Origin: Prevotella sp.
Lineage (GTDB): Bacteria; Bacteroidota; Bacteroidia; Bacteroidales; Bacteroidaceae
Length of the DNA stretch: 52,411 nt
Direction: 5' to 3'
Assembly (NCBI GenBank): GCA_017965725.1
Contig: JAGCPK010000141.1
Location: forward strand, 1 to 52,411
The stretch's first letter is position 1, and each line of letters starts with the position of its first letter. A model generated the notes under the pieces. The model did not search any database. It saw only the letters and a list, made by a program, of their open reading frames with translations, and was not told the DNA's origin. Shown piece after piece: positions 3,760 to 16,775 of the stretch. A program made the position numbers and the translations under genes.

Positions 3760-3852
3760 CATTTAATGAATTAGTTTTATTGGTGTCCGATTTTATCGTA
3801 TCGTTGCGTATCGTTGCGCACGATGCGTATGGTTCGGGGTGGCCGGATGTCG

Positions 3853-3990
3853 TACCTTCGCAGATGAATTCCTGAGGGGCGGGGTAGGAGCCGGGGCGTG
3901 GCTATGGCGAACCGGGCGGCCGGGCGCCGCGACAACATCCAAAAGACCGCCATCGAGGCCCGTCCGATCCGAACCGCCCCTCGTTTTTGT
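3853..3990 (+). ncRNA. Candidate GC-rich structured RNA with end-closing helix
   Basis: TACCTTCG (3853-3860) is a near-match to the -7 promoter element. Starting about 14 nt after it, GAGGGGCGG (3874-3882) pairs perfectly with CCGCCCCTC (3974-3982), which is followed directly by GTTTTTGTTT. Inside, ATGGCG (3904-3909) can pair with CGCCAT further down, and GCGGC-CGGGC-GCCGC forms a 5-bp hairpin. The layout (promoter, closing stem, internal hairpins, T-run) is that of a folded RNA of about 115-120 nt, or a structured leader of the smalltalk peptide gene that starts at 4016. It matches no RNA family I recognise. A reading frame crosses it but looks unlike a protein. Confidence 0.5.
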
Positions 3991-4015
3991 TTAACCCTTA
4001 AAAAACGATTTGCGT

Positions 4016-4120
4016 ATGAAGAAGATCAAGTGGTCAACAGTGAAGAAGGTGCTGCAGGTGGTTGTTGCCATCATCTCCACCGTGGTGGGAACGGTCGCCG
4101 TGCAGGCTTCTGTGTTCTGA
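4016..4120 (+). CDS. Smalltalk protein (membrane micropeptide)
   Basis: A 34-residue peptide: a basic N-terminus (MKKIKWSTVKKVL), one hydrophobic helix (QVVVAIISTVVGTVAVQA, about residues 14-31) and a short end. This is the layout of the Bacteroidales 'smalltalk protein' family, which usually lies next to DUF4248, HU-like and amidase/M15 genes. Function is unknown. A single membrane helix beside a peptidoglycan hydrolase allows a holin-like reading (inference only). It follows the candidate structured RNA by 25 nt. Confidence 0.75.
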   Translation: MKKIKWSTVKKVLQVVVAIISTVVGTVAVQASVF

Positions 4121-4138
4121 AATGGAGGGAGGGCATCG

Positions 4139-4456
4139 ATGGGAGTGAAAACCCAGCCCCGAATCCGGGGCAGTCCATCCCCCGCCGGGGGAAAGTCCGA
4201 GCGGAATGTCAGGCAAGAAATCCCCACCGGGGTAAAGTCCGAACGGAATCTCAGGCACGATATCCCCACCGGGGTAAAGTCCGAACGGAATCCGGGGCAC
4301 GATATCCCCACCGGGGGAAAGTCCAAACCGAATCTCGGGCACGATATCCCCGCCGGGGTAAAGTCTGAACGGAATGTCGGGCACGAAATCCCCACCGGGG
4401 TGAAGTCTGAACCGAATCTCAGGCAGACCACACCCCACCGGAGAGTGAAAACATGA
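4139..4456 (+). CDS. Possible repeat protein encoded by the 42-bp array
   Basis: An open frame of 105 codons begins at ATG 4139, 8 nt after a strong Shine-Dalgarno-like GGAGGGAGGG and 18 nt after the smalltalk stop. It is almost entirely 14-residue repeats of the type KSERNLRHDIPTGV, because the DNA repeat is exactly 42 bp. Several unit differences are silent (GAA/GAG, TCC/TCT, GTA/GTG) or conservative (D/E, V/L), but others are not (R/P, R/G). The repeat length also keeps two minus-strand frames open, so the frame alone proves nothing. Start context favours translation; the repeat itself could equally be noncoding. Confidence 0.35.
   Translation: MGVKTQPRIRGSPSPAGGKSERNVRQEIPTGVKSERNLRHDIPTGVKSERNPGHDIPTGGKSKPNLGHDIPAGVKSERNVGHEIPTGVKSEPNLRQTTPHRRVKT
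4151..4444 (+). repeat. Tandem array of seven 42-bp hairpin-containing units
   Basis: Units begin with AAGTC at 4193, 4235, 4277, 4319, 4361 and 4403, exactly 42 bp apart, preceded by one degenerate unit at 4151. Each carries the hairpin CCCC-ACC-GGGG (GCC loop in two copies), and most carry a smaller CCG-AA-CGG. Copies differ at a few positions, so this is an old array rather than a recent slippage. It fills the stretch between the smalltalk gene and the DUF6261 gene. Confidence 0.9.
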
Positions 4457-4471
4457 AGAATAAACTTAAAA

Positions 4472-5452
4472 ATGACAGTTATGGGATTGAACATCAAACA
4501 GATTGATAACTTTAAACTGAAGTCGCTGCGCATGGCGGGATTCCTGGAATATGTGCAGCAGGTACAGAACATTGTGAAGGCCTTCCGCGACTCGGGCGAG
4601 GCGGGCGTGAGCCAACTCCCCGCGAAGGTCGAGGCCGCCTACACACCGTTCATCGCGGGTGTGACGGCGATGGACCAGGCCTACCGACTCAGTCGCGCCA
4701 GCGAATTTACCCAGCAGATCGCCGACGAGGACACGCGCCGCGACGGTCTCTACACGGCGCTGAAGAGCCAGGTACAGATGTACCAGAAGTTCACCTTCGA
4801 CGCCGAGAAGAAGGCGGCGGCCACGCTGCTCTGGAACATCATGAAGAAGTACAGCGTGGATGTCAGCGAGAACTACTCCGAGGAGAGCGGTAAGATGCAG
4901 CAGATGATACAGGAACTGGAGGACAACCAGCAGGCCATGACGACCATGACGGCCCTGGGACTGACCTCGCTCCTGACGCAGTTGAAGACCGCCAACGAGG
5001 CCGTGCGCACGCTGATGTCGCAGCGCAACGACGAACGTATGCAACAGGAGAGGTTGGCCCTGGCCAAGGCCCGCAACGAGGCCGACGGGGCCTACCACGA
5101 CCTGATCCTGATGCTCAACGCGGCCACCGCGATGGACGACGACCCCTCGCGCTTCGACGAGATGATCATGCAGGTGAACGAACTCATCAAGTACTACCGT
5201 CAATACGTCTTGAAGACCGGCAAGGGCTCCAATGACGATGACGACAAGCCCTCCGGCGGTAACAGCGGTAACGGCGGTGGCAATGGCGGCAATGGCGGCT
5301 CTTCGTCAGGCTCCGGCTCTAACACAGGCGGTTCCGGCTCAAGCTCTGGCGGTTCCGGCTCAAGCTCTGGCGGTTCCGGCTCAAGCTCTGGCGGTTCCGG
5401 CTCAGGCTCTGGCGGTGGTTCTAATACTGGCGGCGAAGAGGGCGGCCTGTAA
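4472..5452 (+). CDS. DUF6261 family protein with Gly/Ser repeat tail
   Basis: A 326-residue protein. Residues ~5-250 are helical and follow the DUF6261 pattern of Bacteroidales: 'LPAKVEAAYTPFIAGVTAMDQAYRLSR', 'TQQIADEDTRRDGLYTAL', a central helix pair, and the closing 'FDEMIMQVNELIKYYRQYV'. Function is unknown. The last ~70 residues are low complexity (acidic DDDD, then GGN and GGSGSSS repeats), encoded by a tandem run of a 21-bp unit at about 5326-5400, so tail length probably varies between strains. No signal peptide, hence probably cytoplasmic. ATG at 4472 or 4481 could start the protein. A clear terminator follows at 5484. Confidence 0.8.
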   Translation: MTVMGLNIKQIDNFKLKSLRMAGFLEYVQQVQNIVKAFRDSGEAGVSQLPAKVEAAYTPFIAGVTAMDQAYRLSRASEFTQQIADEDTRRDGLYTALKSQVQMYQKFTFDAEKKAAATLLWNIMKKYSVDVSENYSEESGKMQQMIQELEDNQQAMTTMTALGLTSLLTQLKTANEAVRTLMSQRNDERMQQERLALAKARNEADGAYHDLILMLNAATAMDDDPSRFDEMIMQVNELIKYYRQYVLKTGKGSNDDDDKPSGGNSGNGGGNGGNGGSSSGSGSNTGGSGSSSGGSGSSSGGSGSSSGGSGSGSGGGSNTGGEEGGL

Positions 5453-5483
5453 CCCAATAAGTTCCGTTCCTTTTGTGTAAGAT

Positions 5484-5518
5484 ATCCCCGAATTGTTTGC
5501 CAGTTCGGGGATTTTCTT
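5484..5518 (+). terminator. Rho-independent terminator after the DUF6261 gene
   Basis: ATCCCCGAA (5484-5492) pairs perfectly with TTCGGGGAT (5504-5512), followed by TTTCTT. It separates the accessory island from the next promoter at 5527. Confidence 0.75.
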
Positions 5519-5526
5519 CTAAAACA

Positions 5527-5559
5527 TTTGGAACTTCGCACAGAAATGTGTATCTTTGC
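5527..5559 (+). promoter_or_regulatory. Promoter of the BspA/InlB-type gene
   Basis: TTTG (5527-5530), 20 nt spacing and TATCTTTGC (5551-5559) give a full Bacteroidetes promoter, 25 nt before the start codon at 5585. Confidence 0.75.
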
Positions 5560-5584
5560 CACCAGAACCGATGAATAATTAGAA

Positions 5585-7693
5585 ATGATAAACAAAACCA
5601 TTACCCATTTATCCTTACGGGCAGCGGCACTGCTGACCCTCATGTTGCTCACCATCCTTACCGTCCCCACTGAGGCAAAGGCGCAAGGCGGCGACAGTTA
5701 TGATACCTATACTCTGACGCTGGACGACAATTATGATGGAGGAGGAATACGAACATTCAATATTTATAGTGGCTACAATATTACACCGACTGCACCTACA
5801 CGCACCGACTATACTTTCCTCGGCTGGGCCACGTCGGCCACTGGTGACGTTGTATATGCGCCTAATGTACAAATCACCATAAATGGCGACCTGACGCTCT
5901 ACGCAAAATGGGTAAAAACGACTTGCCATGTATATCTCTACGCCAACGATGGCACAGAGACGATGGTGACGGATAACATAGCGGGTGGCACAAATTACAA
6001 TATCCCCACATGCGGCTTTACCAGAAGCGATTATTTTTTCATCGGCTGGGCTACGTCGGCCAGCGGAAACGTTGTGTATCAGCCAGGTCAAACAGTTACC
6101 CTGACAGACGACCTGACGCTCTATGCAAAATGGTTCGAGGGATATGCCGGCACGTGTGGATGGGTTAATGGACCGTCAGGCCTCGACGGATCGGAGGTAA
6201 CATGGAGTTTGACCAAGAGCGAGGGAGGTACCATCCCTGACCTGCTCACCATCAGCAGCAGCATCCCCAACGGATCTATGGAAAACTATGGCGAAGGAGG
6301 AAGTCCCTGGTACAACTACCGCAATCAGATCAAGACCATCGTGATAGGTGATGGCATGAATCATATAGGGGGATATGCCTTCAAGGACTGCACTAAAGCG
6401 ATTTCAGTATCATTTGGCAACAGAGTTAAAGATATAGGTGAAAAAGCTTTCCAAGGATGCACCTCGTTGACAAGCGTCAACATCCCGTTGGGCGTGGGGA
6501 ATATTTTCGAACAAACCTTCGATGGTTGCACCTCCCTGACAAGTGTTAACATCCCATCGAGCGTGACAATAATCCAGTATAGAGCCTTCTCTGGTTGCAC
6601 CTCCCTGACAAGTGTTAACATCCCATCGAGCGTGACAAAAATCCAGGATAGAGCCTTCTATGGTTGCACTGGCCTGAGGTCCGTCACCATCGGCAGTGGA
6701 GTGACGAACATCCGTGGTCAGGCATTTGATAATTGCTTAAATCTGTCTTCGGTCACCATCTATGCGACGTCGGTGCCAACTTGTGACTTGGATGTTTTTA
6801 TTAGCCATGCCTTTTGGCGGAAGATATATGTGCCGGCCACCAGCGTGGAGGTATATAGGGCGGCGGATGGGTGGAAAGAATACGCTAGTGATATCTTACC
6901 GCTGGATGTGATTATTGCCGACGGCGATGACAAGAGCGTGCTGACAAACGGGCAGACGAAGAACATTGCGCTGAAACGGACATTCCCCGCCGGGAAGAAG
7001 CAGACGGTATGCCTGCCGTTCGACCCGTCGGAACTGCTGAACCACGGTAAGGTGTGGGAGTTCACGGGCATCAGCGAGGAAGGCGGCGTGAAGAAGGCGG
7101 TGATGACGGAGGTTACTTCGGGCCCGCTCTCAGCCAACACTCCGTACATCTTCGAGGCGACGAGCAACGTGTATGGCATCACATTCCCCAACGTAGAGGT
7201 CAATATCAGCGAATACCCGGAGACGGTGGATGCCACGGCGGGCTTCACCTTCCACGGGACATACACAAAATTGCACTGGGACGCCAACGACGACGATGTG
7301 AAGAACGGTCACATCTACGGCTTCCTGATGGAGGACAGCGAGGATGACCCAAGCCGCAAGGAGGGTATGTTCGTGAAGGCGAAGTACAACACAAATGTCC
7401 GCCCGTTCAGTTGCTATCTGGAATACAACGGCGAGCTGACTGGTACAGAGACGGCTTCGACGGCTCGCCGCAAGGCATCGGCAGAGGAACTGCCTGATGT
7501 GATTGAGATAGAGTGGAAGTCGGCGGAAGAGGCTCCAGGCATGGCGACGGGAATCGTTGACATTGAACATGGAACATGGAACAGTGAACATTCGGCTGGC
7601 ACGTGGTATAGCCTCGACGGTCGCAGACTCTCAGGCAAACCGTCTGTAAAGGGACTGTATATCCATAACGGGAAAAAAGTCGTGATTAAGTAG
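5585..7693 (+). CDS. Secreted BspA-type leucine-rich repeat protein with InlB repeats
   Basis: A 702-residue exported protein. Signal peptide about residues 1-33, ending TEAKA. Two InlB/Listeria-Bacteroides repeats (about 40-185) each end in LTLYAKW and contain FLGWATSA or FIGWATSA. Five BspA-type LRR_5 units follow (about 255-395; 'AFxGCTSLTSVNIPSSVT'), two of them nearly identical in DNA. Residues ~445-640 form a beta-rich module related to one in the GLUG protein at 10845. The C-terminus (WYSLDGRRLSG...KGLYIHNGKKVVIK) resembles a type IX secretion sorting tail. Such proteins are usually surface-exposed and bind host or bacterial partners (family knowledge). The stop is 17 nt before a small peptide gene, suggesting co-transcription. 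Confidence 0.88.
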   Translation: MINKTITHLSLRAAALLTLMLLTILTVPTEAKAQGGDSYDTYTLTLDDNYDGGGIRTFNIYSGYNITPTAPTRTDYTFLGWATSATGDVVYAPNVQITINGDLTLYAKWVKTTCHVYLYANDGTETMVTDNIAGGTNYNIPTCGFTRSDYFFIGWATSASGNVVYQPGQTVTLTDDLTLYAKWFEGYAGTCGWVNGPSGLDGSEVTWSLTKSEGGTIPDLLTISSSIPNGSMENYGEGGSPWYNYRNQIKTIVIGDGMNHIGGYAFKDCTKAISVSFGNRVKDIGEKAFQGCTSLTSVNIPLGVGNIFEQTFDGCTSLTSVNIPSSVTIIQYRAFSGCTSLTSVNIPSSVTKIQDRAFYGCTGLRSVTIGSGVTNIRGQAFDNCLNLSSVTIYATSVPTCDLDVFISHAFWRKIYVPATSVEVYRAADGWKEYASDILPLDVIIADGDDKSVLTNGQTKNIALKRTFPAGKKQTVCLPFDPSELLNHGKVWEFTGISEEGGVKKAVMTEVTSGPLSANTPYIFEATSNVYGITFPNVEVNISEYPETVDATAGFTFHGTYTKLHWDANDDDVKNGHIYGFLMEDSEDDPSRKEGMFVKAKYNTNVRPFSCYLEYNGELTGTETASTARRKASAEELPDVIEIEWKSAEEAPGMATGIVDIEHGTWNSEHSAGTWYSLDGRRLSGKPSVKGLYIHNGKKVVIK

Positions 7694-7710
7694 ATAAAAA
7701 GTTAAGTCAT

Positions 7711-7851
7711 ATGGAAAAGAAAAAATATATGAAGCCTTCGATGAAGGTCTATGAAATCGGAAACACCACCCGGGTGCTGGTCGGCTCTGAACAATTCGGC
7801 TACACACCCCGCATCCCCGGCCAGCAGCCCGACGAGAAACAGTTGGCGTAA
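7711..7851 (+). CDS. 46-residue peptide, putative RiPP precursor (copy 1)
   Basis: A short gene 17 nt after the BspA-type gene. The peptide begins MEKKKYMKPSMKVYEI, then TTRVLVGSEQ, and ends YTPRIPGQQPDEKQLA. It aligns along its length with the peptide at 12363: shared KKKY.KP.M.VY, (V/L)LVGS, Y.P.IPGQ and D(E/D)K(Q/H)LA. It has no signal peptide or membrane helix. Conserved leader-like N-terminus, LVGS junction and proline-rich end are what one expects of a modified-peptide precursor (inference). The last seven codons lie in a 57-bp inverted repeat flanking the DUF4143 gene, and an alternative tail sits at 9343-9375. The amino acids DEKQLA are the same in both tails although three of six codons differ silently, which supports true coding. 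Confidence 0.7.
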   Translation: MEKKKYMKPSMKVYEIGNTTRVLVGSEQFGYTPRIPGQQPDEKQLA

Positions 7852-7885
7852 CGCAGTGTTACACACGGGGACAGGAACCGTGTGT
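7829..7885 (+). repeat. Left arm of a perfect 57-bp inverted repeat
   Basis: This arm is an exact reverse complement of 9288-9344. It starts inside the last seven codons of the peptide gene, passes the stop and ends with a REP-like hairpin: ACACACGG (7861-7868), 9-nt loop, CCGTGTGT (7878-7885). Together the arms bracket the DUF4143 gene. Confidence 0.95.
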
Positions 7886-7898
7886 TACATGATTCGAA

Positions 7899-9173
7899 TC
7901 AATCCTTCAGACACCCGATTGGAACCACATAAACGCCATCCTCTCTTCTATAGGCATATGTTCCAACACCTATCAGCACCATCATAAATGATGGTTCCTT
8001 CATTTTTTCGGTGTCAATCTTCTCTGCCAGCGACTTCATCACGTCAGCACCGTCATTTATAAGATCATCGCCACCAAGTTTAATCTCCACCAAGCCATAG
8101 CGTCCATCTCTCAGATGCACCACAGCATCACATTCCAATCCATTCTTATCCCGATAATGGTACACCTTACCATTCAATGCTTCTGCATATACACGGAGGT
8201 CACGTACAGCCATGGTTTCAAAGAATAATCCAAACGTATTCAGGTCATTAATCAAATCATTAGGGCCTATACCCAAAGCAGCCGTAGCAATCGAGGGATC
8301 AGTAAAATACCGTGTATCACTTGTACGTATGGCAGTCTTACTCCTCAGGTTGGGATTCCATGCCTCACTGTCCTCCACAACGAATATTTCCTTCAGGGCC
8401 TTGCAATAAGAAGAAATAGTATCTTCCGATATCGTATCTGCTTCATTGGCAATCAAATCGGCCTTAATAGTTCCGAACGAAGCCTGACTGCCTTGGTTCC
8501 TGGCGAGAGACCGTAAGAGCCGGTGGACACGGACAGAGTCACGTTCCACACCATCCACCTTTGAAATATCACGTTTCTCAACAGATTCCACATAGTCAAA
8601 TGCCTGATCCAATGCAATTTCACGTTCCATATCAACAGCCAAAGGCCATCCGCCACGGCAAGTCAGGAAAGCCACCTGCTCAATATCCATCGGATTGACT
8701 GCGCCTACCTGTTCGGGTGTGGTAAACAACTCTGCGAGCGAAACCTCTCCGCTTGATTCCTGCGACTCCCAAAGGCTCATTGGTCGCATCCTAAGCCATC
8801 CGATACGTCCTGTTCCTGTGTGTATAACTTTACTCATATCTGGTGGAACAGAAGACCCTGTCAAAATAAACTGGCCCAATGGACCGTGGTCAGATTCAAA
8901 ACGAACACTATCCCATAATTGGGGTGCAACCTGCCATTCATCTATTAGTCTGGGAATATCACCTTTCAAGATTAATTTGGGATTCAACCTGGCCAATTGG
9001 ATGTTCTGATCTACCATACCCGTTTCCGTCATATACTTCACACTCTTGGCAATTTGCTCTGCCGTAGTAGTCTTTCCACACCACTTCGCTCCCTCAATAA
9101 GCACCGCACCTTTACCTGCTAACTTACGCTGTAAAAGGCCGTCTGCTATTCTTTTCTTATACGTTTTCTCCAT
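7899..9173 (-). CDS. DUF4143/AAA ATPase (ATP-binding protein), within an inverted-repeat element
   Basis: A 424-residue member of the AAA_14/DUF4143 family. Walker A-like region at about residues 25-37 (VLIEGAKWCGKTTTAEQ), Walker B and arginine-finger region around LIDEWQVAPQLWD and FILTGSSVP, then the C-terminal DUF4143 nuclease-like part with 'YHYRDKNGLECDAVV...GRYGLVEIKLGG', whose D...E.K spacing resembles the PD-(D/E)XK fold. The frame is open upstream, but the ATG at 9173 follows the -7 element at 9196-9204 and starts the conserved domain. The family is very common and multi-copy in Bacteroidetes; its role is unsettled (toxin-antitoxin-like and transposon-associated roles have been suggested). 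It lies in reverse orientation between 57-bp inverted repeats at the end of a peptide gene, so it looks like cargo or driver of a small mobile unit. Confidence 0.82.
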   Translation of the reverse strand: MEKTYKKRIADGLLQRKLAGKGAVLIEGAKWCGKTTTAEQIAKSVKYMTETGMVDQNIQLARLNPKLILKGDIPRLIDEWQVAPQLWDSVRFESDHGPLGQFILTGSSVPPDMSKVIHTGTGRIGWLRMRPMSLWESQESSGEVSLAELFTTPEQVGAVNPMDIEQVAFLTCRGGWPLAVDMEREIALDQAFDYVESVEKRDISKVDGVERDSVRVHRLLRSLARNQGSQASFGTIKADLIANEADTISEDTISSYCKALKEIFVVEDSEAWNPNLRSKTAIRTSDTRYFTDPSIATAALGIGPNDLINDLNTFGLFFETMAVRDLRVYAEALNGKVYHYRDKNGLECDAVVHLRDGRYGLVEIKLGGDDLINDGADVMKSLAEKIDTEKMKEPSFMMVLIGVGTYAYRREDGVYVVPIGCLKD

Positions 9174-9195
9174 ATTATCGTATTTATATTCGGGT

Positions 9196-9204
9196 GCAAA
9201 GATA
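9196..9204 (-). promoter_or_regulatory. -7 element of the DUF4143 gene
   Basis: TATCTTTGC on the minus strand, 22 nt before the ATG at 9173. It fixes the start codon: the longer frame would begin upstream of the promoter. Confidence 0.6.
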
Positions 9205-9238
9205 CAAATTATTTTTTTAATTCCGCCATTTGGCCGGA

Positions 9239-9283
9239 TTTTATTCACCCATTTGGCTTATTTTTATTCACCCATTTGGCTTA
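9239..9283 (-). repeat. Two direct 22-bp repeats upstream of the DUF4143 gene
   Basis: The 22-bp unit at 9239-9260 is repeated exactly at 9262-9283 (core TTCACCCATTTGGC). A third partial copy of CCATTTGGC lies at 9227-9234. They sit between the right inverted-repeat arm and the gene's promoter, so they may be binding sites or part of the element end. Confidence 0.85.
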
Positions 9284-9287
9284 GTGT

Positions 9288-9344
9288 ACACACGGTTCCT
9301 GTCCCCGTGTGTAACACTGCGTTACGCCAACTGTTTCTCGTCGG
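9288..9344 (-). repeat. Right arm of the 57-bp inverted repeat
   Basis: Exact reverse complement of 7829-7885, with the REP-like hairpin at its inner end (9288-9312). It directly abuts a second, slightly different peptide tail on the plus strand. Confidence 0.95.
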
Positions 9345-9375
9345 CCAGCCCCAGGACGAGAAGCAACTGGCGTAA
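9343..9375 (+). pseudogene. Detached 3' end of a peptide gene (GQPQDEKQLA)
   Basis: Read on the plus strand, 9343-9375 gives GQPQDEKQLA and a TAA stop. This matches the end of the peptide at 12363 (GQPQDDKHLA) and the present end of the peptide at 7711 (GQQPDEKQLA). There is no matching 5' part. The easiest explanation is that the DUF4143 element split the original peptide gene here and supplied a replacement tail on its left side. A terminator follows at 9403, as expected for the end of the original unit. Confidence 0.65.
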
Positions 9376-9402
9376 GAGACGACATTTTATCGAAATAACA
9401 TT

Positions 9403-9437
9403 AGCCTTGCTGACCCATAGGATCGGCAAGGCTTTTT
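9403..9437 (+). terminator. Rho-independent terminator closing the first peptide unit
   Basis: AGCCTTGC (9403-9410) pairs with GCAAGGCT (9426-9433), followed by TTTT. It lies 28 nt after the detached peptide tail. Confidence 0.75.
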
Positions 9438-9481
9438 GGTATAAAGAAAGTTAATAATCGCATCCATTCACATTTTTTTCG

Positions 9482-9490
9482 TACCTTTGC
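9482..9490 (+). promoter_or_regulatory. -7 element of the C11 peptidase gene
   Basis: TACCTTTGC, 17 nt before the ATG at 9507; no clear -33 TTTG. Confidence 0.55.
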
Positions 9491-9506
9491 CCAAATTTCT
9501 TGCGTT

Positions 9507-10784
9507 ATGAAACTATCTCGATTATTCCTGAGCCTTTTGGCCATAAGTTTTGCGGCGTGCGGTAACAACGATATGCCTGTTCCTAATCCTGTACCAGAAC
9601 CTCCCGTCGCTTCCAGCGAGCGAACGGTACTCGTATATGTGGCGGCAGATAACAATCTGAGTGATTTTTCTGTTTACGACCTCCAAGAGATGAAAGAAGG
9701 TTCGAAGGGCCTCAATGACAATCAGAACCTCATTGTCTATGTTGACAAAGATGATGATAACAACCCCTATTTCGCACGCGTCAAAGATGGCAAGTTCGTC
9801 GATTCTACCAGTGTCAGCGAGACTCCCACTTCCGACCCTGCCGTTTTCGAAGAGGCCTTGCGTTATGCCCGCGAGAAATATCCTGCCAAGAGTTATGGAC
9901 TCGTGCTCTGGGGGCATGCCACAGGATGGCTGATCAGGAATGATTCTATCACCTATGCCAGAAATCGTGCCTATGCCATCGACCAAAGTGTCTCTCCTAT
10001 TTCTTGGATGAACATTCCCTCGATGGCCCGTGCCATCAAAAACGGCATGAACGGTGAGAAACTTGCCTTCATTTTTGGCGACTGCTGTACTTTATGCACC
10101 GTCGAGGTGGCTTATGAATTGCGCAATGTCACCGACTATGTCATCGGCTCTCCTGCAGAGATTCCTGATCACGGCGCCAATTATTCTAATTTTTCCAACC
10201 TCTTCGACACCAGTTCCACTTTCTATAAAAAGATTATCGACCAATATTGGGATGAGTATATCGAGCAATTTAAGAACAATATCTATCGGTACTATTTTCT
10301 CGATTTTGGTGACTTGGCAGGTTATAGTCAACCCCTGATAGCGGTCAGGACGTCTGAACTTGATAATCTGGCCGCAGCCACCGCAAAACTGCTTAATACC
10401 ATCACAGACAAACTGAAGCCTACAGGCACGCTCGATGTCAGCAACGTGATCTTCTATGCTGTCAACAATGGTCTGATGAATAACTACGACATGTATAAGA
10501 TGCTGAAAGAGAATACTGATGAAGCCGACTTCAACGAATGGGTACCCGCCTTTGAGAAAGCAGTACCTTACTATCGTTTGTCACCTCGTTGGTTTGTTAG
10601 TAAATCCACACTTCCCGTATTCAAAAAGAATATGCCATCTTTCGATGAGATCAGTTCCGACTGCCGCGTGTTAAGTATGTTCTTCCCTGGGAATCAGTAT
10701 AATAACATCTCTCCAAGTCTGAACACCACGATACAGAATCTTCAGTGGAATGGACCTATCGGTTGGCAGCAGTACGGCTGGTAG
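9507..10784 (+). CDS. Clostripain-family (C11) cysteine peptidase lipoprotein
   Basis: A 425-residue exported lipoprotein: hydrophobic N-terminus with lipobox-like SFAAC (Cys at about residue 18), then a Pro-rich linker. The C11 catalytic core shows the His motif LVLWGHATGW (about residue 136) and the Cys motif FIFGDCCTLCTVEVAYELRN (about residue 190), the caspase-like dyad of clostripain relatives. These enzymes cleave after basic residues and often self-activate (family knowledge). The gene has its own promoter and lies between the two secreted-protein/peptide units, so it might process peptides or surface proteins made next to it, but nothing in the sequence proves that. Confidence 0.85.
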   Translation: MKLSRLFLSLLAISFAACGNNDMPVPNPVPEPPVASSERTVLVYVAADNNLSDFSVYDLQEMKEGSKGLNDNQNLIVYVDKDDDNNPYFARVKDGKFVDSTSVSETPTSDPAVFEEALRYAREKYPAKSYGLVLWGHATGWLIRNDSITYARNRAYAIDQSVSPISWMNIPSMARAIKNGMNGEKLAFIFGDCCTLCTVEVAYELRNVTDYVIGSPAEIPDHGANYSNFSNLFDTSSTFYKKIIDQYWDEYIEQFKNNIYRYYFLDFGDLAGYSQPLIAVRTSELDNLAAATAKLLNTITDKLKPTGTLDVSNVIFYAVNNGLMNNYDMYKMLKENTDEADFNEWVPAFEKAVPYYRLSPRWFVSKSTLPVFKKNMPSFDEISSDCRVLSMFFPGNQYNNISPSLNTTIQNLQWNGPIGWQQYGW

Positions 10785-10844
10785 CCATCTCGGCAAAACA
10801 ATATTTTGCACTTTCTTTGCACATAGAAATCAATCAAAACAACA

Positions 10845-12350
10845 ATGAAACACAAAAACTTTACAACTATTTTTGTGCAGGCGGCACAGATGCTGCTCGC
10901 AGTGATGCTGACGCTAGGCACACAGACGGCGTGGGCGCAGAGTACTATGCAGTTCCCGATTTATACGGGCGATGAAGGCACGTCAGAAAAACCCTATCAG
11001 ATCAAGACCACCGATGACCTGAACAAGTTGGCCGCCGACGTGAACAGCGGCACGACCTACGCTAACACGTACTTCAAGATGACCGCCGACATTGCCTATA
11101 CCTACACCATGGCGTGGAACGATGACAATAGCACCGAGAACAACTACACTGCTATTGGTTGCAAACTTAGTAATAATGATGAAGATGATCATCCTTTCGA
11201 AGGCACGTTCGACGGCGATGGCCACACCGTGAGCGGCATCCGTATCTATAAGGGTGGGAGCGATCAATTTAGCAACTCCTACCAAGGGCTCTTCGGCTAT
11301 ATGCGGCAAGGCACGGTGAAGAACGTCACCCTCAGTGACGCCAATATCACTGGCTATGGTAATGTCGGCGGCATCGTGGGACGGCAACAAAGTGGCACCA
11401 TCGAGAACTGCCTTGTGATTGGTACTAGAGTCAATCGCACTAGTTACAATGGTGCCAGAGGTGCAATTGTCGGCTATAGTCTCAATCTTGGTTCTGGTAG
11501 TACCCTCAAATATAACTACTACAGTAACTGCATCATGGGCGACACACCCACTGCCAGCGGCATCGGCTGCAACGGTGCCGACGTCACTGAGAACGACGGG
11601 GCCGTGCCTGCTACCATCTTAAGCGAGATCGCAGCCGTGCCAACGCCATTGAGCGGCACGGTGGTCTTCCGCCGTTCATTCACTGCCAACGTGGCTTCGA
11701 CTATCTGTCTGCCGTTTGCCTATACGCCCGCTACGGGCATCGGCACGTTCTATGAGTTCGCTGGCGTGAACGCCGAGAAGACGGAGGTGACGATGCAGGA
11801 TGCGAACATAACGGCAGACAATCCTTTAGAAGCCAACAAACCCTACCTGTTCAAGCCCGCCGCCACTGGGCCAGTACTGTTCCACGGCACGGCTGCTGCA
11901 ACTATCAGCGCGGGCAAGACACCCACGACGGGCAATACCGACGGTTGGGTGTTCAAGGGCACCTACGCCCGCATCAACTGGCCTGATGACCCACAGACCA
12001 TTTACGGTTTCGCGGCACCTGGCAAGGCAGACCTGGCCGAGGGTAAGTTCTTCCGCGTGAAGGGTGGAAGCAACAGTTATGTGCTGCCTTTCCGTGCCTA
12101 CCTGCAATATAGTGGCACCAGCGGTGCACGGGCCGTGACACGCGGCGGGACGGAAGACCTTCCCGAGACGATGACCGTGCGGTTTATCGATGCTGTCGGC
12201 ACGCCGACGGCCATCGGTACGCTCAACACCCGTACGGGCGAGGTCGTGTTCGGCGACGCTTGGTATAGTCTCGACGGTCGCCGCATCCAGGGCCAGCCGA
12301 CCAAGAAGGGCATCTATATCAATAATGGATATAAGATAATCATCAAATAG
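10845..12350 (+). CDS. Secreted GLUG-repeat protein
   Basis: A 501-residue exported protein. Signal peptide ends at TAWA-Q (about residue 32). 'GTSEKPYQIKTTDDLNKLAADVNSG' and 'FEGTFDGDGHTVSGIRI' are typical of GLUG-type beta-helical surface proteins; a GLUG unit is visible as 'GNVGGIVGRQQSGTIENC'. Residues ~265-501 are related to the C-terminal part of the BspA-type protein at 5585 (RSFTANVASTICLPF against RTFPAGKKQTVCLPF; LEANKPYLF against LSANTPYIF) and end WYSLDGRRIQG...KGIYINNGYKIIIK. The next peptide gene starts 12 nt after its stop with a GAGGAC ribosome site that begins at the stop codon, so they are translationally linked. Confidence 0.82.
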   Translation: MKHKNFTTIFVQAAQMLLAVMLTLGTQTAWAQSTMQFPIYTGDEGTSEKPYQIKTTDDLNKLAADVNSGTTYANTYFKMTADIAYTYTMAWNDDNSTENNYTAIGCKLSNNDEDDHPFEGTFDGDGHTVSGIRIYKGGSDQFSNSYQGLFGYMRQGTVKNVTLSDANITGYGNVGGIVGRQQSGTIENCLVIGTRVNRTSYNGARGAIVGYSLNLGSGSTLKYNYYSNCIMGDTPTASGIGCNGADVTENDGAVPATILSEIAAVPTPLSGTVVFRRSFTANVASTICLPFAYTPATGIGTFYEFAGVNAEKTEVTMQDANITADNPLEANKPYLFKPAATGPVLFHGTAAATISAGKTPTTGNTDGWVFKGTYARINWPDDPQTIYGFAAPGKADLAEGKFFRVKGGSNSYVLPFRAYLQYSGTSGARAVTRGGTEDLPETMTVRFIDAVGTPTAIGTLNTRTGEVVFGDAWYSLDGRRIQGQPTKKGIYINNGYKIIIK

Positions 12351-12362
12351 GAGGACACAACG

Positions 12363-12509
12363 ATGAAGAAGAAATATGTAAAGCCCACGATGGAGGTATA
12401 TGTGCTGAATCAGCCCACAAAGTTACTCGTAGGAAGTGACCATGACTGGAACCTCAACTACATCCCCACTATCCCAGGCCAGCCTCAGGACGATAAGCAC
12501 CTGGCGTAA
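12363..12509 (+). CDS. 48-residue peptide, putative RiPP precursor (copy 2)
   Basis: Begins MKKKYVKPTMEVYVLNQ, then TKLLVGSDHDW, and ends YIPTIPGQPQDDKHLA. It is clearly related to the peptide at 7711. A GGAGGA-type ribosome site lies about 8 nt before the ATG. It is the first gene of a tight run (10 nt to the nucleotidyltransferase) that contains a PqqD/RRE protein and an exporter, which is the strongest reason to read it as the substrate of that machinery. The KKKY.KP.M.VY part would be the recognition leader and the residues after LLVGS the product region (inference). No cysteines; the core-like part has D, H, W, N, Y, P, Q and K. Confidence 0.72.
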   Translation: MKKKYVKPTMEVYVLNQPTKLLVGSDHDWNLNYIPTIPGQPQDDKHLA

Positions 12510-12519
12510 TTAATGATAG

Positions 12520-13665
12520 ATGAAAGAGTGTCAATTATTCTTTGAGTTGCTGAGGGCGGCGATGAGGGAGGAGCCGTTGGAGACGGGGTCTTTCGGGACT
12601 GAGCCGACGGAGGCGGCATGGACGGCACTCTATCAGATGGCGCGGAAACAGTCGTTGACGGGCGTGATCTATTCGGCGGTGGCGCGGTTGCCCCGTGAGC
12701 AACAGCCTCCGATGACACTGGCCATACAGTGGGCCAGCGAGGCAGAGGAGATACGTGGTCTCAACGCCCTGTTGAACAGTGAGGCGGCACGGTTGACGAG
12801 ACTGTTTGCCGACAATGGGCGACGGACGGCCATCCTGAAGGGTCAGGCGAACGCACGACTCTATCCAGACCCAATGAGTCGGCAACCCGGTGATATCGAC
12901 ATCTGGGTGGAAGGCGGCCATGAGAGCGTCACCGACCTGTTGATGACCCTGGGGATGTTGAACGAGCGGCCATCGATGAGGAACTATGGCAAGAAGGGCA
13001 AGGCCACATCATCATATCACCATGTTCATCTGCCACCGACAAAGGACGGCGTGACGGTGGAGGTGCATTTCCGACCTTCGTCGGGCAACTTCAACGCCAT
13101 CACGAACAAACGGCTGCAACAATGGTTGGAGCGTGAGATACAACAGACGGCGATGGTGCCGGAAGGTTTCAGCGTGCCGTCGGTGCGGTTTGCGCTGGTG
13201 ATGCAACTCGCACATATCCAGCACCATTTCATCGCCAGTGGCATCGGACTGCGACAGGTCTGCGACTACTATCTGCTGTTGCAGAACTCCACGGAGGAAG
13301 AGCGCACGGAGGTGGCGGGCCTGCTGAAGCAGTTCGGACTGCATCGGACGGCAGGAGCGCTGATGTGGTTGCTCAGCGACTTGCTGCACATCGACCGTGG
13401 ACTGATGCTCTGCGAGACGGATGACTATCGCGGGGCGTGGATGCTGCGCAGGATCATGGAGGGCGGCAACTTCGGTTTTTATGCTTCGAGTGTACAACAA
13501 AATATATGGCGGGATTTCTTCCAAAGCAAATGGCATCGGCTGAAGATGATGCGGTTTGACTTCTGGGAGGTGCTGTGGCTGGAGGGCAGTTACTGGAAGA
13601 CCATCGTCAGGACCCTTCCCGAGCGCATCAGACGAAGGAAACTGTCATTGAGAACGTGTATATGA
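12520..13665 (+). CDS. Nucleotidyltransferase family protein (NTP_transf_5 type)
   Basis: A 381-residue protein with the hallmark LKGQANARLYPDPMSR...GDIDIWV (residues ~106-130), in which the DxD supplies metal ligands, followed by VEVHFRP (~180). Length and pattern fit PF14907-type proteins, found in peptide natural-product clusters, including paeninodin-type lasso clusters where the homologue sits with an HPr-kinase-like gene. Proposed role: transfer of a nucleotidyl or related group to the peptide or to a phosphorylated intermediate (inference). Its stop overlaps the next start by ATGA, indicating translational coupling. Confidence 0.82.
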   Translation: MKECQLFFELLRAAMREEPLETGSFGTEPTEAAWTALYQMARKQSLTGVIYSAVARLPREQQPPMTLAIQWASEAEEIRGLNALLNSEAARLTRLFADNGRRTAILKGQANARLYPDPMSRQPGDIDIWVEGGHESVTDLLMTLGMLNERPSMRNYGKKGKATSSYHHVHLPPTKDGVTVEVHFRPSSGNFNAITNKRLQQWLEREIQQTAMVPEGFSVPSVRFALVMQLAHIQHHFIASGIGLRQVCDYYLLLQNSTEEERTEVAGLLKQFGLHRTAGALMWLLSDLLHIDRGLMLCETDDYRGAWMLRRIMEGGNFGFYASSVQQNIWRDFFQSKWHRLKMMRFDFWEVLWLEGSYWKTIVRTLPERIRRRKLSLRTCI

Positions 13666-14510
13666 CTACGAGATATTACAACGTGGCAGGACATGCGTTC
13701 TGCGTGACGGCCGGGGAGAATGACTTCGGACAGATGCAGAATTATGAGCCGTTTGCGACCACTCCACATGATCCTCTATTTACGTTGACGGTCGGGGAGG
13801 GGGAGCCCCCGGCATATACCGAGGAGTTCAGACAGGAGGAAGAGGGGCAGGTGATTGTCTGGGGCAAGACGGATGACGGACAACCCGTGTTTGTTTTTTG
13901 CTGGGACGGACAGACGGCAGGGTGGCTGGTGTGTTCGGCCGACTACCGCGAGGCACGGCTCATCACGACGGGATACGCCCGTAAGATGGCGATAGACAAC
14001 GCCCTGATGATACTCTATGCCCTGATGACTGCCGACAAGAACACGCTGCTGTTTCATGCGGCGGTGGTGAGTCATGAGGGGCACGGCTATATGTTCCTCG
14101 GCAAGAGCGGCACGGGCAAGAGCACTCATGCCAGTCTGTGGCTACAACATATCATGGGCACGGAACTGGTGAATGATGACAATCCCGTGGTGCATATCAT
14201 CGACGGTAGTGCCATCGTGTATGGCTCGCCGTGGAGCGGAAAGACACCGTGTTACCGTAACGTGAGTCATCCCCTCGGGGGCATCGTGCTGTTGAGTCAG
14301 GCTCCCTACAACAAGATAGAACGGCTACAGGGCATTGCGGCATATATGGCCGTCGTGACGAGTGTCAGTGGGATGCGATGGGAGAAACGGATGGCCGACG
14401 GGCTGCACCGTACGGAGAACATGCTGGCCCAGACGGTGGCGACATGGCATCTGGAGTGTCTGCCTGATCAAGAAGCAGCAACATTATGTCAAACGACGAT
14501 AGGATTATAG
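13662..14510 (+). CDS. HPr-kinase-like P-loop protein (peptide kinase candidate)
   Basis: A 282-residue protein. The open frame reaches further upstream inside the previous gene, but the ATG at 13662, overlapping the TGA of the nucleotidyltransferase, begins the conserved part (MTTRYYNVAGHAF). The Walker A motif is FLGKSGTGKSTHASLW (about 145-160), preceded by LLFHAAVVSHEGHGYM and followed by ELVNDDNPVV, the arrangement of HPr kinase/phosphorylase relatives. Homologues in lasso-peptide clusters phosphorylate the precursor peptide (known for paeninodin). The substrate here would be the peptide at 12363 (inference). It overlaps the next gene by 25 nt. Confidence 0.8.
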   Translation: MTTRYYNVAGHAFCVTAGENDFGQMQNYEPFATTPHDPLFTLTVGEGEPPAYTEEFRQEEEGQVIVWGKTDDGQPVFVFCWDGQTAGWLVCSADYREARLITTGYARKMAIDNALMILYALMTADKNTLLFHAAVVSHEGHGYMFLGKSGTGKSTHASLWLQHIMGTELVNDDNPVVHIIDGSAIVYGSPWSGKTPCYRNVSHPLGGIVLLSQAPYNKIERLQGIAAYMAVVTSVSGMRWEKRMADGLHRTENMLAQTVATWHLECLPDQEAATLCQTTIGL

Positions 14511-14914
14511 AGGAGACGATACGACTGGTGGGGGAGGGCGTGAGCGTGACGCTTCCAGTGAACGGGAACAGCATGCTGCCGTTTATCATCGGTGGGCGTG
14601 AGAGCGTCATCCTGCAGCCACCATCACACCTGGATGTCGGCGACGTGGTGCTGGCGTGGGTCAAGGGCGGCTACTACGTGGTGCACCGGATCATCGCCAT
14701 CGACAGCGACGCGGTGACACTGATGGGCGACGGTAACCTGGCAATCACGGAACAGTGTGCCAAGAGCGACATCAAGGCCCTGGTGACACATGTGGTGGAT
14801 GCCAATGGGCGGCGACACGAGATAGACAGTCAGTGGCGGCGATGCGCTGCCAGACTCTGGTGGCATCTGCGCCCCATAAGAAGATATCTTTTAGCAATAT
14901 ACAGACGATTATGA
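14486..14914 (+). CDS. S24/S26-type peptidase with Sec11-like Ser-His-Asp residues
   Basis: A 142-residue protein with GNSMLPF (Ser29), YYVVHRIIAI (His67) and MGDGN (Asp82). The HR motif in place of the bacterial catalytic Lys is the pattern of archaeal and ER-type signal peptidases (S26B), so a Ser/His/Asp mechanism is likely. Unlike real signal peptidases it has no N-terminal membrane anchor; the C-terminus is very basic and amphipathic (WRRCAARLWWHLRPIRRY). In this cassette it is the obvious candidate to remove a leader peptide (inference). Overlaps the PqqD gene by ATGA. Confidence 0.78.
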   Translation: MSNDDRIIEETIRLVGEGVSVTLPVNGNSMLPFIIGGRESVILQPPSHLDVGDVVLAWVKGGYYVVHRIIAIDSDAVTLMGDGNLAITEQCAKSDIKALVTHVVDANGRRHEIDSQWRRCAARLWWHLRPIRRYLLAIYRRL

Positions 14915-15183
14915 GAATCAAACAAGGATTTACGCTGCGCGAGGTGTGCGGCGAGAGAGTGATCATCGGAGAGGGTCTTGGGGCCGTGAACTTCGGTAAA
15001 CTGCTGGCCCTGAACGAGAGTGCCGCATGGCTCTGGAAACAGGCTGTGGAGGCGGGCGACTTCACTGTGGAGTCGTTGGCCGACAGGATGTGTGAGGAAT
15101 ACGAAGTAACGGCAGAAGAGGCCCGTCAGGACGTCATGGAGATAATCCAAGAATGGAAGTCTGTGGGCGTCATTGCAGCATAA
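14911..15183 (+). CDS. PqqD family RiPP recognition element protein
   Basis: A 90-residue PqqD-like protein. 'MRIKQGFTLREVCGERVIIGEG' forms the beta-strands, then 'LLALNESAAWLWKQA' and 'ADRMCEEYEVTAEEARQDV' the helices, ending 'EWKSVGVI'. PqqD domains bind the leader of a ribosomal peptide and present it to modifying enzymes (known for PqqD and lasso B1 proteins). Its presence is the main reason to call the run a RiPP cluster. Start: ATG at 14911 overlapping the TGA of the previous gene; the longer upstream frame lies entirely within that gene. Confidence 0.85.
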   Translation: MRIKQGFTLREVCGERVIIGEGLGAVNFGKLLALNESAAWLWKQAVEAGDFTVESLADRMCEEYEVTAEEARQDVMEIIQEWKSVGVIAA

Positions 15184-15185
15184 TT

Positions 15186-16775
15186 ATGAACTACATCACG
15201 TGGCTATGGCGCAACTCACGGGGCATCCGCTGGAACACGGCGGTGCGCATCGTGGTGGGCATCACACAGGTCTGGCTCGGACTGTTGATGGTATGGCTCA
15301 GTAGGCTGTTCATCGATGAGACCATCCGAACGGGCTCGACCGACGATGTGCTGCAGATGGTGGCATGGCTCGTGCTGACCGTTGTCGGCGGTGTCGTACT
15401 GCGACAGTGCTACTACTGGCTCACGACATCGGCCGGCATCCGACAGACCAACACCCTGCGCCTCAGGATCTTCAGCAGTCTCTTCCGCCGACAACTCTAT
15501 ACTGGCGAGGAGATGCACTCGGGCGACGTGACCTCACGCATGGCGAAGGATATCGAACAGGTGAGCACCACGACCACCGACACGCTGCCCCAGGTGTTGA
15601 TCACGATGATACAACTCTGCGGCGCCTTCCTGTTGATGCGCTGGTTCGACGAGCGGCTGGCATGGGCCCTGCTCTTGCTGACACCTCTGGCTGTCGTTTT
15701 CGGCAAACTCATTGCTCGTCGGCTGCGGCAGATGACACTCGACATCCGACAGGACGAGAGCCGTATCCAGATGCAGGTGCAGGAGGGAATGGAGCACAAC
15801 GCCGTGCTGCGCTCCCTGGGCTCGGAGCAATGGGTGACCAACCGCCTCGACATGATGCAGGAGCGGTTGAGGGGGAACGTGATGCGGCGCACACGGTTTA
15901 CCGTGGCAACACGCCTGGCACTGGGCTTCGCCTTCGGCCTTGGCTACCTGCTGGCCTTCGTCTGGGGCGGTCTGCAACTGCGCGCAGGCGCCATCACCTT
16001 CGGTGTGATGACCTCGTTCCTGCAACTGGTGGGCATGATACAGGGACCGATACTGCAACTGCTCAACATGGTGCCTTACGTGATCCACACCACAGCGAGC
16101 ATCGACCGACTTAATGAACTCGATGCTGACGACGGCTCAATTAAAAAAACGACAGAACGGGGTATCTCTGATTCACTCCAACATGGCATTCGTTTCGACG
16201 ACGTCAGTTTCCGCTACGCTACGGGCGACAGGGAGATACTGCGTCAATTCACCCACGACTTCAAGGCTGGCACGAAGACCGCCATCATGGGTGAGACGGG
16301 CATCGGCAAGACAACACTCTTCCGACTGATCCTCGGCTTCATCGAGCCCACGAGTGGACGGGTGGAAGTAGGCGGAGAACCCTGTTTCGTGCCACAGGGC
16401 AACACCCTGATGAGCGGCACCATCCGCTACAATCTGCAACTGGCCAAGCCCGATGCGACCGATGAGGAACTGCGGGAAGTGCTCCATATTGCCTGTGCTG
16501 ATTTCGTCATGGATATGCCGGAAGGTATCGACACCGAACTGGGTGAGCGTGGCGGCGGACTCAGCGAGGGACAGGCGCAACGTATCGCCATCGCACGGGG
16601 ACTGTTGCATCCTGGCGACATCCTGCTGCTCGACGAGATCAGCAGTTCACTCGATGAACCCACCGAGCGCGAACTCTACCGCAGACTCTTCAACGCCTAT
16701 CCCGACAGGACCATGCTCTTCATCACTCATCGTCCCACCGTCACCGAACAGTGCGACGAGACAATACAGTTATAG
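15186..16775 (+). CDS. ABC transporter, fused membrane and ATPase domains (peptide exporter)
   Basis: A 529-residue half-transporter. Six membrane helices in residues ~20-300 (for example VRIVVGITQVWLGLLMVWL and LGFAFGLGYLLAFVW), then an ATPase with Walker A GETGIGKTT (~369), Q-loop FVPQGN, signature LSEGQ (~459), Walker B ILLLDE (~479) and H-loop ITHR (~512). There is no N-terminal C39 peptidase domain, so leader removal must be done by another protein. Start ATG at 15186, 2 nt after the PqqD stop. Last gene of the cassette; likely exports the modified peptide as a homodimer. Confidence 0.85.
   Translation: MNYITWLWRNSRGIRWNTAVRIVVGITQVWLGLLMVWLSRLFIDETIRTGSTDDVLQMVAWLVLTVVGGVVLRQCYYWLTTSAGIRQTNTLRLRIFSSLFRRQLYTGEEMHSGDVTSRMAKDIEQVSTTTTDTLPQVLITMIQLCGAFLLMRWFDERLAWALLLLTPLAVVFGKLIARRLRQMTLDIRQDESRIQMQVQEGMEHNAVLRSLGSEQWVTNRLDMMQERLRGNVMRRTRFTVATRLALGFAFGLGYLLAFVWGGLQLRAGAITFGVMTSFLQLVGMIQGPILQLLNMVPYVIHTTASIDRLNELDADDGSIKKTTERGISDSLQHGIRFDDVSFRYATGDREILRQFTHDFKAGTKTAIMGETGIGKTTLFRLILGFIEPTSGRVEVGGEPCFVPQGNTLMSGTIRYNLQLAKPDATDEELREVLHIACADFVMDMPEGIDTELGERGGGLSEGQAQRIAIARGLLHPGDILLLDEISSSLDEPTERELYRRLFNAYPDRTMLFITHRPTVTEQCDETIQL

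Follow-up and report, generated by a model that had tools for sequence, protein, structure and literature searches.

The stretch of DNA analysed here, called the window throughout, comprises 52,411 nucleotides of a Prevotella sp. contig (JAGCPK010000141.1, assembly GCA_017965725.1). From position 12363 to position 16775 it carries six genes in one run, a short peptide gene followed by genes for a nucleotidyltransferase of the NTP_transf_5 type (NTP5), an HprK-like kinase, an S26 peptidase, a PqqD-type RRE (recognition element of ribosomally synthesized and post-translationally modified peptides, RiPPs) and an ABC exporter (Table 1). The NTP5 and HprK-like genes overlap by 4 nt, the HprK-like and S26 genes by 25 nt and the S26 and PqqD genes by 4 nt, and a 2-nt gap separates PqqD from the ABC gene. 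The original prediction, made from the sequence without database searches, had listed these genes and junction lengths, and all of them were found in place. The peptide gene starts 12 nt past the stop of a GLUG-like gene and ends 10 nt ahead of NTP5, and is therefore probably co-transcribed with both. A scan of the DNA predicted 8 terminators, where shuffled sequence gave 9.6, and 17 promoters, where it gave 10.9 (sd 2.7). On the evidence presented below we consider it probable that this cassette is a non-lasso RiPP-like maturation system acting in trans, in which one set of enzymes serves dispersed precursors wired to surface-protein operons.

Table 1. Features of the window. Models A1 (peptide family) and A3 (C-terminal domain, CTD) were built partly from window sequences: A1 includes the peptide at 7711-7851, A3 both window partners.
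Feature	Position	Strand	Basis
Precursor peptide, 48 aa: Y-x-K-P-x-M leader, LLVGS junction, 23-aa acidic core	12363..12509	+	Open reading frame (ORF) list; family model A1, 61.6 bits in own genome
NTP_transf_5 nucleotidyltransferase (NTP5), GDIDxWV motif	12520..13665	+	PF14907 E 2.7e-48
HprK-like P-loop kinase (SGTGKST, NDDN)	13662..14510	+	TIGR00679 2.3e-6, ScmC 1.2e-6, both below cut-off
Soluble S26 peptidase, Sec11-type Ser29/His67/Asp82	14486..14914	+	TIGR02228 1e-4, below cut-off
PqqD-type RRE protein	14911..15183	+	PF05402 E 5.3e-15
ABC exporter	15186..16775	+	PF00664 (ABC_membrane) + PF00005 (ABC_tran)
GLUG-like protein with CTD WYSLDGRRIQGQPTKKGIYINNGYKIIIK; upstream partner of the 12363 peptide	10845..12350	+	PF07581 17.2 bits, below cut-off; CTD model A3 73 bits
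Second precursor peptide, 46 aa, family of the 12363 peptide	7711..7851	+	A1 58.5 bits in own genome; first seen by motif
List-Bact-repeat/leucine-rich surface-type protein with CTD; partner of the second peptide	5585..7693	+	TIGR02543 2.8e-12; CTD model A3 77 bits

The conservation of the unit was followed in 55 loci (0.93 Mb in total, several contigs being cut), which were collected by a search with the window PqqD protein and are thus chosen by similarity to it. By title, 44 belong to Prevotella, Prevotellaceae, Xylanibacter or Segatella, nine to other Bacteroidales or Bacteroidaceae, one to an "uncultured bacterium" and one to a Fibrobacter metagenome-assembled genome. HprK is present in 51 loci, S26 in 54, ABC in 46 and NTP5 in 12. 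Of the 51 loci that have all three genes, 48 keep the order HprK-S26-PqqD; so do 19 of another 20 genomes, picked across the family. Near the triad of these 20 genomes NTP5 occurs in five and a strong ABC match in eight. HprK-S26-PqqD is the core of the unit and NTP5 is optional, so that the five enzyme and transporter genes, originally predicted to travel together, did not hold up as a unit. The arrangement is more than chance, as the core recurs across the 55 loci and is also found in further families of the order. Within the genus, PqqD was found in 44 of 47 genomes and is single-copy in 40 of those 44. HprK and S26 are fused without an internal stop in three loci (L010, L027, L039), and in L131 (5344-7395) an S26 peptidase forms the N terminus of the ABC exporter in one 683-aa ORF, likewise free of internal stops; both kinds of fusion argue that the fused proteins act together. 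The other cassette neighbours inspected look, by eye, like housekeeping or unrelated genes. In two genomes of genus g11 two radical SAM genes (PF04055) stand among the HprK, S26, PqqD, NTP5 and ABC genes (L129 in G159, 7676-12049, and L139 in G126, 3849-10727), and both loci also carry a second PqqD-like gene and, by eye, polysaccharide-export-like genes downstream. This interleaving suggests that the cassette is a modular platform.

The family assignments of the enzymes are of uneven strength. The discrete B1-like RRE of lasso clusters has a clear counterpart here (PF05402, E 5.3e-15). A PqqD profile run against PDB found the lasso RRE TfuB1 (6jx3) as its best match, a weak one at E 0.007, with 9x90 at E 0.062, and the best lasso-PqqD model of NCBIfam matched the window protein at 5.6e-6, below its cut-off. 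The HprK-like protein (Hpr_kinase_C, 0.0015) and the S26 protein (Peptidase_S24, 6e-4) are both under the curated cut-offs and were judged consistent with their families; their best NCBIfam matches are ScmC/HPr kinase and an archaeal-type signal peptidase, respectively, all below cut-offs, and profile searches of PDB with either protein gave weak matches. The SGTGKST and NDDN residues of the kinase are invariant in 40 aligned sequences, as are Ser29, His67 and Asp82 of the S26 protein in 46; the latter three are the catalytic positions of Sec11. NTP5 retains its GDIDxWV motif in 10 aligned rows. No transmembrane-like segment was seen in the S26 protein (hydropathy maximum 1.37), and no peptidase domain was among the family matches of the window ABC protein.

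Kinase, nucleotidyltransferase, RRE and ABC exporter also stand together in lasso clusters, according to the excerpts of PMC8498205, PMC10368454 and PMC7533575 used here (all papers below are likewise cited from excerpts). The cassette could accordingly be a decayed lasso cluster that lost its cyclase and B2 protein and kept functionless tailoring enzymes. This is very improbable because decay would not keep the active-site residues (invariant in 40-46 sequences), the gene order (48 of the 55 loci, 19 of the 20 further genomes) or a mostly single-copy PqqD.

A related explanation holds that the cassette does serve a true lasso, or another kind of ring, and that the cyclase and B2 are encoded at another site or in the part that the 85%-complete genome lacks. 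In this genome PF13471 (transglutaminase-like B2) has no match at E<=10. PF00733 (Asn_synthase) has one strong match, a 554-aa ORF that begins with MCGIV, adjoins a CarB-like ORF and reads, by eye, as AsnB, plus three short matches just above the cut-off (21.8-23.3 bits against 21, spanning 37-63 of 354 positions). Across 100 genus genomes PF13471 exceeds its cut-off in one and reaches E<=0.01 in 19, which leaves the ring explanation some room. The family scan of the window proteins found no Asn-synthetase-like cyclase in the operon, and neither a cyclase nor a B2 protein was recognised by eye among the cassette neighbours inspected, few of which were scanned with Pfam; a 591-aa and a 164-aa neighbour in L031, L036 and L046, considered as such a pair, by eye resemble a carboxylase subunit and a protein of the HD type. 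Both window peptides lack an Asp/Glu acceptor at core positions 7-9, whether the count starts at the junction Ser or at one of its two neighbours. We therefore give the ring explanation very little credence. The ring enzymes had been predicted to be missing, and a cyclase/B2 pair elsewhere in the genome had been named as the finding that would speak for a lasso; beyond the AsnB-like ORF and the three short matches, nothing of the kind was found in the 85%-complete genome. As far as tested, the cassette is non-lasso.

The peptide gene belongs to a family with a distinctive anatomy. Seventy-eight members were defined as unique sequences, not independent of one another, that reach at least 16 bits in the fetched DNA; three without the junction pattern were dropped, leaving 75 for core counts. 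The consensus is a leader KKxYxKPxMxVVxL...LLxGS, in which the Ser is near-invariant, followed by a hypervariable acidic core. The Pro occurs in 78 of 78 peptides and the Tyr three residues before it in 76 of 77; five residues after the Tyr stand M (43), F (12), T (7), V (4) or L (3 of the 78). Of 75 aligned peptides, 74 have the junction Ser; the residue before it is Gly in 51 and Ala in 11 of 77. All these are residues towards which A1 is itself biased. Up to this Ser pairwise identity is 42%, and after it 27%, compared with 26% for shuffled cores (up to 800 random pairs from the 75 peptides). Cores measure 9-56 residues (median 22), are net negative in 63 of 75 cases, and contain Trp in 48 and Cys in four. 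The pattern expected of a RiPP, a short precursor whose leader is conserved and whose core varies, is thus found here, and thioether, lanthionine or disulphide chemistry was rejected on the scarcity of Cys. Nineteen members had no match in Pfam and two chance-level matches in NCBIfam; the assignment of one of the 19 to NF033524, the paeninodin family, was rejected at a chance-level E of 0.083. The 12363 peptide belongs to no Pfam or NCBIfam family, and neither window peptide matches PHROGs. Its Tyr, Pro and junction Ser are residues 5, 8 and 25; the calculated mass is 5561.88 Da for the whole peptide, and would be 2773.31 Da for a core starting with Ser25 and 2686.28 Da for one starting behind it. 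Three peptide matches (G207:C13:343174, G057:C8:404092 and G135:C55:15872) cross an in-frame stop and are either decayed copies or matches stretched beyond the end of a short peptide.

In lasso systems B1 RREs recognise Tyr-17, Pro-14 and Leu-12 of the leader (YxxPxL), and one lasso RRE speeds up a kinase acting on Ser3 of its precursor's core (PMC10368454). The original comparison with paeninodin suits the enzymes and fails on the kinase target: the paeninodin-type kinase acts on a C-terminal Ser (PMC8498205), and here Ser ends two of the 75 cores, on which count phosphorylation in the paeninodin style was rejected. From the alignments, the near-invariant junction Ser is the better candidate kinase target. 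A peptidase requiring a small residue would accept Ala or Gly as well, so the near-strict Ser suggests Ser chemistry, for example phosphorylation.

Peptide and cassette co-occur. With A1 at E<=1 the own genome contains two peptide copies, both inside the window. Among 249 genomes of the own family, peptides at E<=0.01 were found in 135, with up to 21 per genome (22 at E<=0.05), and PqqD is mostly single-copy; both occur in 133 genomes, PqqD only in 56, the peptide only in two and neither in 58 (Fisher p 5e-22). The corresponding numbers within the genus are 38, 6, 0 and 3 (p 0.005). In an order-level sample of 392 genomes PqqD accompanies 11 of 12 peptide-positive genomes against 50 of 392 overall, and outside the own family eight of nine against 45 of 385, though among distant genomes a weak match to PqqD may mark another cassette. 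Locally, the 55 cassette loci hold 21 peptides, in 19 of them, against an expectation of about 0.8; at distances of up to 4 kb from PqqD the numbers are 14 (hand count; three on the opposite strand) against about 0.4. The expectations are drawn from the genus density of 130 peptides in 152.66 Mb, the loci being chosen by PqqD similarity. Peptides scoring 20-23 bits stand in or beside cassettes elsewhere, following ABC in L138 and NTP5 in L175 (family f91), and within the cassette itself in L170 (family f50). In L131 a peptide, also at 20-23 bits, lies ahead of a lipoprotein gene and PqqD, with no HprK within that stretch. L038, from the cultured rumen strain Xylanibacter ruminicola Ga6B6, combines HprK, S26, PqqD and ABC with a peptide at a distance of 8.7 kb.

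That a peptide always accompanies the five genes, which the original prediction had proposed to test, is not borne out: 19 of 55 loci have one in the fetched DNA, and 56 of 189 PqqD-positive genomes show none at E<=0.01. The prediction had also named the wide occurrence of the five genes without any small peptide gene as evidence against itself. Locally this is what is seen; genome-wide it is largely answered, since the precursors are dispersed and the link holds at genome level (133 of 135). These numbers bear directly on the rival explanation that the cassette modifies something else, such as surface proteins or a small molecule, and that the peptides are small regulatory ORFs belonging to surface-protein operons, whose co-occurrence with it is inherited. 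Such a scenario would account for the many peptides far from the cassette and beside surface-protein genes, and for the PqqD-positive genomes with no detectable peptide. It is unlikely given an adjacency far above chance, a co-occurrence repeated outside the own family and a leader that resembles the YxxPxL motif read by lasso RREs.

Thirty-one of the 78 peptides lie directly after the gene of a CTD-bearing protein, 28 directly before a lipoprotein gene, two after a lipoprotein gene, and 17 are unclassified. Both features were called by regular expressions, which among 850 background genes mark a lipobox in 62 and a CTD in 20. Several of the 17 look, by eye, like neighbours of lipoproteins that the lipobox rule overlooked, and one of the two peptides placed after a lipoprotein gene looks falsely called. 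The CTD share is lowered by 16 regions that were selected for having no CTD match listed upstream. An example of the CTD is WYxLDGRxLxGKPxKKGLYIxNGKKVVIK. Of the 46 peptides of seven genomes, at least 25 sit 5-206 nt after a CTD match; A3, built from peptide partners, favours such partners, and the best 150 of 183 CTD matches were used. Most CTD genes lack a peptide neighbour: one follows 25 of the 150 CTD matches listed overall, and two of the 25 listed in the own genome. The NCBIfam sorting-domain models match neither window partner. SprA (PF14349), a gene of the type IX secretion system, was found in all seven of these genomes and in none of 14 controls, and export of the CTD partners by this system is plausible. 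Twenty neighbours scanned with Pfam included four fimbrillin-like proteins (PF13149), two over the GLUG cut-off, one with Big_2 and F5_F8, and nine without a match at E<=0.01.

Three further observations concern these neighbourhoods. An esterase-like protein in the window (49905-51668) carries a similar CTD (43 bits, CTD model) and has no YxxP peptide after it. A putative lipoprotein of the clostripain family (PF03415, E 1.3e-41) is encoded at 9507-10784, directly upstream of the GLUG-like gene on the same strand, and may share a transcription unit with it and the cassette. In family f50 (L177, L178, L179, L180, L182) the YxxP peptide often has a lipoprotein gene on one side and, on the other, a gene that looks transposase-like by eye, an arrangement that would fit copying or shuffling of peptide and lipoprotein gene as a pair.

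The hypervariable core and the lipobox gene directly after 28 of the 78 peptides could also point to an antimicrobial or signalling RiPP, with the adjacent lipoprotein as immunity or receptor protein. We regard this as improbable, because the partners include fimbrillin-like, GLUG and leucine-rich proteins and 31 peptides follow a CTD-bearing protein instead. Proteins of these three kinds are more typical of adhesins. The encoding of the precursors beside surface-protein genes means that the product is probably made and used together with those proteins. As a doubtful but conceivable extension, peptides and adhesins might be paired genome-wide, with one kinase/S26/RRE cassette maturing the many dispersed peptides. 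Each would receive a phosphate or a phosphoglycosyl group at its junction Ser and, once released, would act as a dedicated ligand, cap or regulator for the adjacent surface protein (fimbrillins, other lipoproteins, CTD-bearing GLUG or leucine-rich proteins).

Returning to maturation in trans, we propose the following mechanism, drawn from gene content and order, fusions, active-site conservation, co-occurrence, adjacency and the leader/core pattern. PqqD would bind the YxxPx[M/L]-type leader of the dispersed precursors, and the HprK-like kinase would phosphorylate a hydroxyl residue, most likely the near-invariant junction Ser. NTP5, where present, would put a nucleotidyl or sugar group on the phosphate. 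The cytoplasmic S26 peptidase would cleave beside [G/A]-Ser, and the ABC protein, where present, would export the acidic core; at loci without an ABC gene by the triad another exporter would serve, or the product would remain inside. Binding, phosphorylation and cleavage with their sites, export and role are predicted. The earlier suggestion of a peptide modified, cut by S26 and exported rather than folded into a lasso fits these findings, with predicted enzyme activities and with the core triad replacing the five-gene unit.

Several points weigh against this proposal. M or L at the fifth residue after the Tyr is limited to 46 of the 78 peptides. Model A1 contains the near-invariant Ser and so favours Ser-bearing peptides, and most of its seeds lie within 10 kb of cassettes. 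The HprK-like and S26 proteins do not reach curated cut-offs. Four of the eight supporting genomes outside the family are from one genus (4 to 17 peptides each), in three others the peptide is matched weakly (E about 0.005), and the peptide-positive genome G317 has no PqqD. In the 56 of 189 PqqD-positive genomes, no peptide was found at E<=0.01, and the fetched DNA of 36 of the 55 loci, some of them cut short, contains none. Export by the cassette ABC protein is not general, a strong match standing by the triad in eight of the 20 further genomes. The co-occurrence tests treat related genomes as independent, no count is tree-corrected, and one p-value assumes 2,600 genes per genome; the peptide counts are lower bounds, the candidates scored being, for example, 28 of 36 in G207 and 13 in several order-level genomes.

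If the proposal is correct, many Prevotella-like bacteria possess a system for maturing peptides, mostly in single copy, with substrates that are easily overlooked, being tiny, without a family-model match and often distant from the enzymes. Lasso tailoring enzymes (kinase, nucleotidyltransferase, RRE) would be separated from lasso folding, an S26 protein would take the role of leader peptidase, and in rumen and gut bacteria small modified peptides would be linked to operons for adhesins and fimbriae. No published account of this cassette arrangement was found in the open-licence literature, sampled in part, which is weak evidence for its novelty. Complete lasso clusters of the rumen are reported exclusively from Firmicutes in the part of PMC7533575 used, and the excerpted main text of a Bacteroidales RiPP survey (PMC10352776) mentions no nucleotidyltransferase, S24 or signal peptidase.

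Several known systems share individual traits with the cassette. In the prochlorosins, which are lanthipeptides produced by a LanM synthetase, one enzyme set acts on many dispersed precursors with conserved leader and hypervariable core. A single enzyme set for such dispersed precursors is proposed here too, but the cores are nearly Cys-free and the cassette has no LanM-type enzyme. Peptidase-containing ABC transporters (PCATs, C39) couple a leader peptidase to an exporter, as the S26-ABC fusion of L131 would, but the peptidase here is S26-like (Ser/His/Asp) and is elsewhere separate or kinase-fused in the loci read. The HprK-related SynChlorMet cassettes (TIGR04352/TIGR04353, ScmC/ScmD) likewise combine an HprK-like protein with a PqqD-like chaperone, with matches below curated cut-offs. 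The list also includes the lasso clusters of the paeninodin, pseudomycoidin and bsf type, which share the PqqD-type RRE, HPr-kinase homologue, nucleotidyltransferase and ABC exporter, whose YxxPxL leader motif the leader here resembles (PMC8498205, PMC10368454) and in which, for pseudomycoidin, the nucleotidyltransferase puts hexoses on the phosphorylated lasso peptide (PMC8498205). In contrast to these clusters, no cyclase or B2 was found here, an S26 peptidase stands in their place, the precursors are dispersed, the junction Ser rather than a C-terminal Ser is conserved, and the window peptides have no Asp/Glu at core positions 7-9. What seems new is the combination: RiPP-like maturation with lasso-type tailoring enzymes and an S26 peptidase, no cyclase found, and precursors dispersed at surface-protein operons.

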